In this document: positions 3,075 through 21,701 of the stretch, piece by piece
Position numbering within the stretch: the first letter of the stretch is position 1
Layout: the number at the start of each line of letters is the position of its first letter
Assembly: GCA_013150915.1 (NCBI GenBank)
Contig: JAADJE010000088.1
Location: forward strand, 1 to 46,053
DNA from: Gammaproteobacteria bacterium
GTDB lineage: Bacteria > Pseudomonadota > Gammaproteobacteria > BMS3Bbin11
Reading direction: 5' to 3'
Length of the DNA stretch: 46,053 bases
The notes under the pieces: generated by a model
Seen by the model: the letters and a program-made list of their open reading frames with translations, nothing else
What the model was told of the DNA's origin: nothing
Database searches by the model: none
Made by a program: the position numbers and the translations under genes

Positions 3075-3890
3075 ATGACAAGGATGTATAATGAATTACC
3101 TCAGCGACTGGAAATTAAAATGACTGGAAAATCAGATAAATCAATCCGTAAGGGTATCTACATTCTACCCAACCTGTTCACTACCGGTGCACTGTTTTCG
3201 GGTTTTTCAGCGATCGTACAGGCAAGCAAGGGTGATTTTGAACTGGCGGCGATTCTTATTTTTGTTGCTATGGTGCTCGATGGACTCGATGGACGTGTGG
3301 CACGTATGACCAATACCACCAGTGAGTTTGGTATTCAGTATGACAGCCTGTCAGATATGGTTTCATTTGGCCTGGCCCCCGCACTGGTGGTCTATGAGTG
3401 GTCTTTAAATTCCATGGGTAAGCTCGGTTGGCTGGTTGCATTTATCTATGCTGTGGCTGCCGCTCTGAGGTTGGCACGTTTTAATACCCATGCGGCCCAT
3501 GAAAAATCTGTTTTCCAGGGCCTGCCCAGCCCCTCTGCAGCCGCTATCCTTGCTGCTTTCATCTGGGTGGTCAATGATTATGGTATGACAGGAGCCGATT
3601 TCAAAATCTCTATTTTGTTGCTGACTCTGGTGGCGGCTATCCTCATGGTTAGCAATGTACCGTTCCGCAGCTTCAAGGATTTTGACCTGAAAAGCAATGT
3701 CCCTTTTGTTGTAGTTCTGGGAATAGTTATTGCCCTGGTAGTTATTGTTTATGACCCACCCAGGGTTCTGTTCGCGGGTTTCTTCATTTACCTTGTTTCC
3801 GGACCGGTTACTGCTTTGTTGAATCGCAAGAAAGGGAAAGAAGATCTGAAGGGTAGGGATGCTGACAGTTCTGAGAAAGATTCGGACTGA
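3075..3890 (+). CDS. pssA: CDP-diacylglycerol-serine O-phosphatidyltransferase
   Basis: Type-II phosphatidylserine synthase that transfers a phosphatidyl group from CDP-diacylglycerol to serine on the way to phosphatidylethanolamine. The CDP-alcohol phosphatidyltransferase signature D-x2-DG-x2-AR-x8-G-x3-D-x3-D is intact (DGLDGRVAR ... FGIQYDSLSD), followed by FGLAPALVVYEW. About seven or eight hydrophobic segments make it an integral membrane protein. The tail is charged (KKGKEDLKGRD...). ATG 3075 is preferred because AGAGG lies at 3063-3067 with good spacing. An in-frame ATG at 3045 would add ten residues but has a poorer site. The conserved core starts at IRKGIYILPNLFT. Location next to leuA is common outside the enterics. 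Confidence 0.95.
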   Translation: MTRMYNELPQRLEIKMTGKSDKSIRKGIYILPNLFTTGALFSGFSAIVQASKGDFELAAILIFVAMVLDGLDGRVARMTNTTSEFGIQYDSLSDMVSFGLAPALVVYEWSLNSMGKLGWLVAFIYAVAAALRLARFNTHAAHEKSVFQGLPSPSAAAILAAFIWVVNDYGMTGADFKISILLLTLVAAILMVSNVPFRSFKDFDLKSNVPFVVVLGIVIALVVIVYDPPRVLFAGFFIYLVSGPVTALLNRKKGKEDLKGRDADSSEKDSD

Positions 3891-3913
3891 ATTACTTTTT
3901 ACAGAGCGTTATG

Positions 3914-3953
3914 TGTTTCGGTTTACGTAGAATCAAAAATGCAAACCGAAACA
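3914..3953. repeat. 11-bp perfect inverted repeat after pssA
   Basis: Arms TGTTTCGGTTT (3914-3924) and AAACCGAAACA (3943-3953) are exact reverse complements with an 18-base loop, 23 bases past the pssA stop. There is no T tract on either side, so it is not a canonical intrinsic terminator. It may be an RNA stem at the pssA 3' end or an operator for the leuA transcription unit. Confidence 0.7.
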
Positions 3954-3993
3954 GGTGTTGCAATATACTTGCTGTTTATGCGATAGTCCGCTC

Positions 3994-4104
3994 ATGTTAC
4001 AGGCAGACCAAACATTCTCTACGTCGTTAATTGCAGCAGCACCTGTTGTTGCCGCCTCTGCATATACTGCTTACACCCTCCTCAGCGTTCTGTTGCTGCG
4101 CTAG
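3994..4104 (+). CDS. Candidate leucine-rich leader peptide upstream of leuA
   Basis: A 36-codon ORF (ATG 3994, TAG 4102-4104) ends 124 bases before leuA. It contains seven leucine codons, five of them in the last eight sense codons, giving the C-terminus LLSVLLLR. It also has a run of Ala and Val codons (AAAPVVAASA). This is the layout of amino-acid-biosynthesis leader peptides, in which ribosome stalling at Leu codons sets downstream transcription. A hairpin TGCGCT/AGCGCA (4097-4102/4108-4113) straddles the stop codon. The overlapping segment GTTGCTGC (4092-4099) could instead pair with GCAGCAGC (4033-4040), so two exclusive folds exist. Against it: there is no clear Shine-Dalgarno before ATG 3994 and no U-tract terminator follows. 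A further hairpin CTCCAT/ATGGAG is at 4153-4170. Assignment is inference. Confidence 0.5.
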   Translation: MLQADQTFSTSLIAAAPVVAASAYTAYTLLSVLLLR

Positions 4105-4228
4105 TTCAGCGCACATACTCTTACCCACTACCGAATAAGCATCCATCATTTTCTCCATTTTTATATGGAGTGCATGTTAATCTTGGTGCTGAAAATATTC
4201 AGTGCCAAAAGCAATTCAGGATACAGAG

Positions 4229-5779
4229 ATGAGTGATTCATTAATTATATTTGATACCACCTTGCGTGACGGTGAGCAGAGTCCTGGCGCGTCGATGACA
4301 CGTGATGAAAAAGTACGTATCGCACGCAGCCTGGAGCGTATGCGGGTAGACGTTATAGAGGCCGGGTTCCCGGCGGCCAGCCGCGGTGATTTTAAAAGTG
4401 TTCATGCTGTTGCTTCCGTTGTGAAAGAAAGTTGTGTATGTGGCCTGGCTCGTGCCATCAAAAGTGACATACAGGCGACAGCAGACGCCATCAAACCAGC
4501 GAAAAAGAACCGTATCCATACCTTTATCGCCACATCACCCATACATATGCAGGAAAAATTACACATGACGCCGGAGCAGGTGCTGGAGCGTGCCGTCTGG
4601 GCGGTAAAATTTTCCCGTCAGTTTACCGATGATGTTGAGTTCTCTCCAGAAGATGCCGGTCGATCCGATGAAGACTTTCTGTGTAAGGTGATTGAGGCCG
4701 TTATCTCTGCAGGCGCTACGACCATAAATATACCGGACACCGTGGGCTATAATTTACCGGGTCAATTCGGTCTCTTGATTGCAAATCTACGTCAGCGTAT
4801 TCCGAATTCGGATAAAGCCATCTTTTCTGTTCATTGTCATAATGACCTTGGTATGGCCGTTGCCAATTCACTGAGTGCTGTTCTCAATGGTGCAAGACAG
4901 GTTGAATGTACCATTAATGGCCTTGGTGAAAGAGCAGGAAACGCCGCGCTCGAAGAGATTGTCATGGCGGTAGAAACTCGGCAGGATGTGTTCGACTGCA
5001 CAACCGGCATAGATACCACCCAGATCGTACCAACCAGTCGTCTGGTCTCCAATATTACCGGTTTTACTGTGCAACCAAACAAAGCGATTGTTGGTGCCAA
5101 TGCCTTTGCTCATGAATCGGGGATCCACCAGGATGGTGTGATTAAAAAACGTGAAACTTATGAAATAATGCGTGCTGAAGATGTTGGTTGGGCACATAAT
5201 CGCATGGTTTTGGGTAAGCACTCTGGTCGTAATGCCTTCCGTACTCGACTCAAAGAATTAGGAATTGAAATCGAAACCGAATCAGCGCTCAATTCTGCCT
5301 TTGCCCGATTTAAAGAACTTGCAGACAAGAAACATGAGATATTTGACGAAGATCTACAGGCATTGGCGACCGAGGAATCGATTGGTCAGGAGAACGAAAC
5401 AGTTAAGCTGGTTACATTGAAAGTGTGTTCAGAAACTGGTGAGACACCCATGGCTGATGTAACGTTGAACATAAATGGTACGGATATGTCGGCATCAATG
5501 CCGGGTGGTGGGCCTGTCGATGCTGTTTTTAAGGCCATAGAGGCCATCATTAACTGTGGCTGTAAATTACTGCTTTATTCGGTAAACAACATTACTACCG
5601 GCACTGACTCGCAGGGTGAAGTGACTGTTCGTATTGAGAAAGACTCCCGCATAGTTAATGGTACGGGTGCCGACACCGATATTGTCATAGCTTCTGCGAA
5701 GGCGTATCTAAATGCTATGAACAAGATGAAAGTCGACCTTGACCGTTCACATCCACAATCCAGTTTGCCTCCAATCTGA
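4229..5779 (+). CDS. leuA: 2-isopropylmalate synthase
   Basis: Catalyses the first committed step of leucine synthesis, condensing acetyl-CoA with 2-oxoisovalerate. The N-terminal TIM barrel begins with [16 protein letters not shown]. It continues through [14 protein letters not shown] (metal-binding His pair) and [14 protein letters not shown], and HESGIHQDG lies in the linker domain. The C-terminal ~130 residues form the LeuA regulatory domain ([16 protein letters not shown]) that normally binds leucine for feedback inhibition. Length is 516 residues, the usual value for the type-1 enzyme. ATG 4229 is chosen because CAGG lies eight to nine bases upstream. GTG 4202 would add nine residues. 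The upstream leader ORF suggests attenuation as a second level of control. Confidence 0.97.
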
Positions 5780-21584: not shown

Positions 21585-21701
21585 TGGCGGTGATGGTTGG
21601 CCCCCTTAACGACGATATGCAGTGAACCCGGTCAGATCTGGAAGGAAGCAGCCGCAGCTGCAGATTCGGGTGTTAGGGCAAGGCTGTCCTGATCCGCCAC
21701 C
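21585..21701 (+). ncRNA. ffs: 4.5S RNA of the signal recognition particle
   Basis: The universally conserved SRP domain IV is readable at 21622-21653: gtgaacccggtcag, then the GGAA tetraloop with ggaaggaagcagcc. The RNA ends pair as TGGCGG (21585-21590) with CCGCCA (21694-21699). The estimated length of ~117 nt fits the short Ffs RNA of gammaproteobacteria. Exact ends are uncertain by a few bases. It lies just before dnaX, a frequent arrangement. No strong terminator separates the two. Confidence 0.95.

Follow-up and report, generated by a model that had tools for sequence, protein, structure and literature searches.

To our knowledge, leucine control of leuA, the gene for 2-isopropylmalate synthase, has been little described outside enterics. 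In Actinobacteria, the LEU element comprises a leucine leader, no terminator and a pseudoknot, with a base stem formed between the Leu codons and the Shine-Dalgarno (SD) sequence of leuA (PMC1262725), and leader mutations in S. coelicolor were found by Seliverstov et al. to misfit classical attenuation (PMC1262725), which cautions against certainty. In S. lividans the leuA leader LeuL1 is reported to be leaderless and to have no typical terminator (PMC8079986). Campylobacter and other Epsilonproteobacteria carry LeuL, an ORF of 20-35 amino acids with a C-terminal Leu cluster before leuABCD (PMC3847290), and in Sinorhizobium meliloti the leader peptide peTrpL is made from an mRNA beginning at its AUG (PMC10117765). 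The literature consulted holds no description of a leucine leader of the kind reported here in gamma- or beta-proteobacteria, although the broad attenuator survey of Lopatovskaya et al. 2010, as far as it is represented in PMC4833913, which cites it, may predict some.

The DNA analysed here, hereafter the window, is a stretch of 46,053 nucleotides from a Gammaproteobacteria bacterium (contig JAADJE010000088.1), in which leuA, the gene under control, lies at 4229..5779 on the + strand, as do the other features of the leader region given below. The sequence-only reading had placed before it a leucine leader peptide, a 36-codon ORF with five Leu codons in its last eight, 124 nt upstream, and this was borne out. 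The ORF (3994..4104, 36 codons plus TAG) runs from an ATG at 3994 to the stop at 4102-4104, translates as MLQADQTFSTSLIAAAPVVAASAYTAYTLLSVLLLR, and is separated from the leuA ATG (4229) by 124 nt. Its C-terminus, LLSVLLLR, stands directly before the stop and is encoded by CTC CTC AGC GTT CTG TTG CTG CGC (4078..4101), a set of codons that is near-invariant across seven species. Six-frame reading of the window gave 2037 stop-ended segments with 12 codons or more, and only two of them close with so dense a Leu cluster; the second is antisense and at another location.

Conservation was assessed on leuA and its upstream region in eight species, seven from the genus and one from a sister genus. The leader ORF, the Leu cluster and a hairpin at the stop codon, P1, are kept in all seven genus species, where the leaders have 35 or 36 codons, begin with MLQ and end with LLSxLLLR*; a single copy of this pattern is present in each of these seven genomes and in no other. 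Over codons 5-24 there are 0.36-0.48 differences per site, whichever of the three codon positions is taken, while the untranslated region 3' of the leader changes in length by 5 to 8 nt among the species. The sequence-only reading had named relatives lacking a Leu-rich ORF, or carrying frame-breaking indels, as evidence that would count against it; all seven keep the ORF in frame, and the sole indel is of 3 nt and in-frame. No third-position coding signature appears in the genus alignment of the ORF, which is constrained at its ends only, and as judged from this alignment its conservation is different from an ordinary protein-coding signature. Free variation in the middle of the ORF with the frame kept is what would be expected if only its translation, its start and its Leu end matter. 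In the sister genus (L009) the leader ends in ALLLRLRGA*, with a hairpin just 5' of the stop.

The leader has no clear ribosome site, as the sequence-only reading had remarked, and the geometry of the putative promoter may account for this. A -10-like hexamer, GATAGT (3982..3987), has its 3' end exactly 6 nt from the leader ATG and is preceded, across an 18-nt spacer, by the -35-like hexamer TTGCAA (3958..3963), which is kept in the seven species bar its last base in L006 and was not listed by a generic promoter scan because it matches TTGACA at only 4 of 6 positions. Genus-wide, the -10 consensus at this 6-nt distance is [CG]ATA[GT]T and the hexamer beyond the 18-nt spacer is TTGCA(A); other families carry TATAGT or TATATT at the equivalent -10 position. 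Where a leader had just one in-frame ATG, a hexamer sharing five or more of its six bases with TATAAT and ending 6-8 nt upstream of that ATG was present in 23 of 38 loci (shuffles: mean 0.7, max 4) and in 12 of 24 hold-out loci (mean 0.6, max 3). An SD-like 4-mer preceded the leader ATG at only one of the 38 loci and one of the 24; near the leuA start it was present in 24/38 and, in the hold-out, 38/46. Promoter geometry therefore predicts a +1 on the A of the leader ATG or next to it, and this spacing, together with the missing leader SD, suggests that the leader mRNA is probably leaderless, which would explain why the leader has no ribosome site. A second promoter was sought by eye in 4165-4200 and rejected, as no convincing hexamers were seen there.

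Leu-rich ORFs ending ~80-190 nt before leuA are also found at most gamma and many beta loci examined, usually with the C-termini LLP*, LLR* or LRPAR*. The hold-out consisted of 73 other leuA upstream regions, chosen at class level, in which the leader had to end at -200..-60 of leuA. Such a leader was present in 46 of the 73 (block shuffles: mean 5.2, max 9), compared with two in the antisense control and eight at -360..-220; the remaining 27 had no leader under the criteria used. Two hold-out loci, L136 and L120, are near-repeats of training loci and were excluded from the P1 swap test only. Dozens of families have Leu clusters of their own, written in different codons, and comparison of these sequences argues that the leader before leuA is a conserved leucine sensor in many gamma- and beta-proteobacteria. 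Loci from Burkholderia (L091, L096) and Nitrosomonas (L070, L071) have less Leu-rich leaders, e.g., MTAFSRLSLLLAGAPLRALALARLPR, which fall below the Leu threshold and share the -10/ATG spacing.

The hairpin that had been proposed at the stop codon is P1, TGCGCT-AGTTC-AGCGCA (4097..4113), with the leader stop falling at the junction of its 5' arm and loop in the window and with arms that are invariant in the genus and covary in other families. Almost every one of those families has a hairpin at its leader stop. Gamma-type leaders place the stop in the stem loop (CTGCC-gtaa-GGCAG, TGCGCC-gcta-GGCGCA, GCCGC-gcta-GCGGC and ATTACC-gtaa-GGTAAT), and beta-type leaders have the stem immediately 5' of the stop (GCGC-ccc-GCGC). 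When arms were paired with their own or with swapped partners, z was 6.6, and 6.4 in the hold-out, with flanking controls at ~0. P1 is followed by a near G-free, C/U/A-rich unstructured stretch (4114..4152), a possible Rho loading site. Two further hairpins separate it from leuA: P2, CTCCAT-TTTTAT-ATGGAG (4153..4170), kept in the seven species with G-U-preserving changes, and P3, GGTGCTG...CAGTGCC (4185..4206), just 5' of the leuA SD, with one-sided pair-preserving changes in the genus. In about 45 relatives the interval between P1 and leuA carries the motif nnCC-TGGCGA-GGnn(1-6)aACGC (L010, L021, L028, L033, L036, L042, L045, L064, L135 and about 35 more), which is absent from the window genus, where P2 and P3 stand. 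Its loop GCG possibly pairs with the downstream CGC as a tiny pseudoknot, as the letters allow; in L064 and L135 the loop is TGACGA with ACGT downstream, i.e., ACG/CGT in place of GCG/CGC. No Rfam match for this motif was obtained in the loci tried.

The sequence-only reading had also offered an upstream pairing mutually exclusive with P1. Its two segments are present as letters (GCAGCAGCA at 4033-4041 and TGTTGCTGC at 4090-4098), but the complementarity decays in sister species such as L004 and L007, so that 4033-4041 was rejected as the partner. A partner downstream, in the leuA initiation region, is better supported: in the window fold, leader positions 4087-4097 (GTTCTGTTGCT) are predicted to pair with the leuA SD region AGCAATTCAGGAT (4210..4222), a pairing approached at the other loci by swap tests. 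The last 16 codons of each leader were matched with the leuA SD region of its own locus or of other loci. The Leu segment fitted its own SD with z 3.2 (hold-out 5.3), the upstream SD flank at -31..-17 with z 3.3 (hold-out 4.2), the region -45..-31 of leuA with z 3.8 (hold-out 2.6) and leuA 0..14 with z 3.7 (hold-out). As controls, earlier leader codons gave z 0.25 with the SD (hold-out 1.8), and the sequence after the stop z -0.4 (hold-out -0.5).

When the Leu codons were masked in the computed folds to mimic a stalled ribosome, mean SD accessibility in other families rose from 0.22 to 0.31. The effect is small; p was 0.001 relative to a downstream mask, 0.03 relative to an upstream one and 0.07 relative to a ribosome placed on the stop. 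Inside the window genus the same masking did not raise it on average (0.37 to 0.31), in a figure for which the SD of L008 was mis-picked, and SD pairing probabilities were taken by fixed position instead. On that basis the SD pairs with the leader with a probability of ~0.99 in the window fold and of 0.04 to 0.8 in the sister species, in differing registers. The genus consensus fold joins the leader UCCU to the SD AGGA and the preceding bases to leuA GAGUGA, and RNAalifold on the genus found no pair changed on both sides. The SD pairing is only moderately supported for the window's own genus, and its unevenness there, together with the small masking effect, leaves control at the SD as the best account but not a proven one.

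With a probability of roughly 0.6, we read the ORF as a leucine leader peptide by which the translating ribosome controls leuA, its stalling freeing the leuA SD. The control would probably work by hiding and freeing this ribosome-binding site, not by a classical terminator. The promoter at 3958-3987 would fire at or beside the leader ATG, giving leaderless translation of the leader. When leucine is plentiful, the ribosome would reach the stop and depart, and the Leu-codon segment could then capture the leuA SD and start region by base pairing, keeping leuA translation low. When charged Leu-tRNA is scarce, the ribosome would stall at CTC CTC ... CTG TTG CTG and cover that segment, leaving the SD free. 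P1 probably slows RNA polymerase or the terminating ribosome, holding the two coupled. In this scheme the conserved ORF, Leu cluster and P1, the distance from the -10 box to the ATG, the missing terminator and the SD complementarity are observed, and we infer the transcription start, the translation, the stalling and the direction of regulation. The attenuation logic of the sequence-only reading is supported by the ORF, Leu cluster and P1 shared by the seven species, and, of the two modes of action it had left open, control of leuA translation fits the SD complementarity, while Rho keeps a place among the alternatives.

By analogy, we conclude that this leader would work like the LEU element. 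Each places an ORF containing a Leu run ahead of leuA, has no obvious terminator and has internal hairpins between the Leu codons and the leuA SD. The complementarity of the Leu codons to the leuA SD, which would correspond to the base stem, is statistical across other families, present in the window fold and uneven among the sister species; the counterpart of the pseudoknot would be the candidate GCG/CGC pairing of many gamma loci, absent from the window genus. For the leaderless feature, promoter spacing agrees in two data sets, with the start site predicted from it. Two actinobacterial leuA regions, found with a probe that was used for the search only, also have a Leu leader, which in Microbacterium is MQFGLLLLSCRDESSD; their Leu codons CTTCTTCTT are, by eye, complementary to AGAAGAAG before leuA. 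However, the proteobacterial leaders are longer (~20-45 codons) with their Leu codons right at the stop, their stop codon lies within a small hairpin, and their CC-TGGCGA-GG..ACGC motif, itself not of the window genus, was unseen in the two actinobacterial regions. A widespread gamma/beta counterpart of the LEU element, with a leaderless Leu leader, a stop-codon hairpin, a small pseudoknot and control at leuA translation initiation, is a reading to which we would give slightly less than even odds. LeuL resembles the present leader in its length, Leu cluster and place, but has a predicted ribosome-binding site and an RNA reported to end soon after the stop codon (PMC3847290). While peTrpL shares the start at its AUG, it senses tryptophan in an alphaproteobacterium, and its attenuator doubles as a separate small RNA (PMC10117765).

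Three other explanations were weighed. Rho-dependent attenuation is less likely than SD control but a serious rival: after ribosome release Rho would load 3' of P1 and terminate before leuA, and a ribosome stalled at the Leu codons would shield the stop region and block Rho, a tnaC-like geometry. As in tnaC-like Rho leaders, the RNA 3' of the leader stop is C-rich and G-poor. It is near G-free for ~40 nt past P1 in all seven species, with a C/G ratio of about 22 at +10..+30 past the leader stop; the ratio is 5.1 for beta-type leaders, which are C-rich there, and 2.4 for gamma-type ones. The pyrimidine-rich tail after P1 recurs elsewhere, and the window has no intrinsic terminator. However, a typical rut is longer than the G-free stretch, gamma-wide the region is broken by the P2 hairpin, and the complementarity between the Leu segment and the SD, seen in two data sets, is not predicted by Rho attenuation. 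The two are not exclusive, and Rho termination and SD control could both operate.

The absence of a U-tract terminator, already remarked upon in the sequence-only reading, counts against classical attenuation of the E. coli leu type. Like the E. coli leu, trp and his attenuators, the locus has a leader rich in end-product codons, with the regulatory cluster near the leader stop, a stop-codon hairpin and alternative pairings, but neither the window nor most relatives have a U-tract terminator, and the leader here has no SD. A scan of 3850-4300 found no intrinsic-terminator-like site before leuA. Among 102 leaders, from the window and other families, 16 have such a site, where shuffled sequences average 4.8, but many of these sites are P1 with a C/U-rich tail and not a U-tract, and 84% of the leaders have none; we hold classical attenuation to be very improbable. 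A role for the conserved block at the RNA or DNA level only, be it as a protein site or a structured RNA, with the ORF incidental, is scarcely credible. Third-position changes are not in excess and P2 to P3 is partly conserved at the nucleotide level, yet the frame is kept at ~0.4 differences per site next to a UTR that varies in length, Leu clusters are built from differing codons in dozens of families, and the position of the leader ATG follows that of the -10 box.

The widespread gamma/beta counterpart of the LEU element, if real, would make leaderless translation a conserved component of the way in which Gram-negative bacteria sense amino acids. Annotation and terminator-based searches for attenuators would both overlook a leader whose start codon opens the mRNA and which needs no terminator. 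The likely leaderless leader, kept in two large proteobacterial groups, would offer a natural system for asking why sensing uses leaderless initiation, and, with the element present in culturable relatives, it would be readily testable.

Some minor observations concern the same DNA. The block GTGCATGTTAATCTTGG is near-invariant across the seven species, with one change (L006). Rfam covariance models gave no credible match on six related loci, and their sole match at gathering score in the window was elsewhere, a bacterial small signal recognition particle RNA (RF00169) at 21595-21692. A second LeuA-like protein is encoded in the same genome (G000, contig C10, 9887-10915), with 36% identity over ~354 residues. 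Finally, a small ORF (ATG TTA ATC TTG GTG CTG..., 4174-4236) begins 3 nt after the GGAG locked in P2; it extends over the leuA start in the window, L003 and L004, and in L005-L008 it is MLILAL* only, with the stop TAG or TGA.
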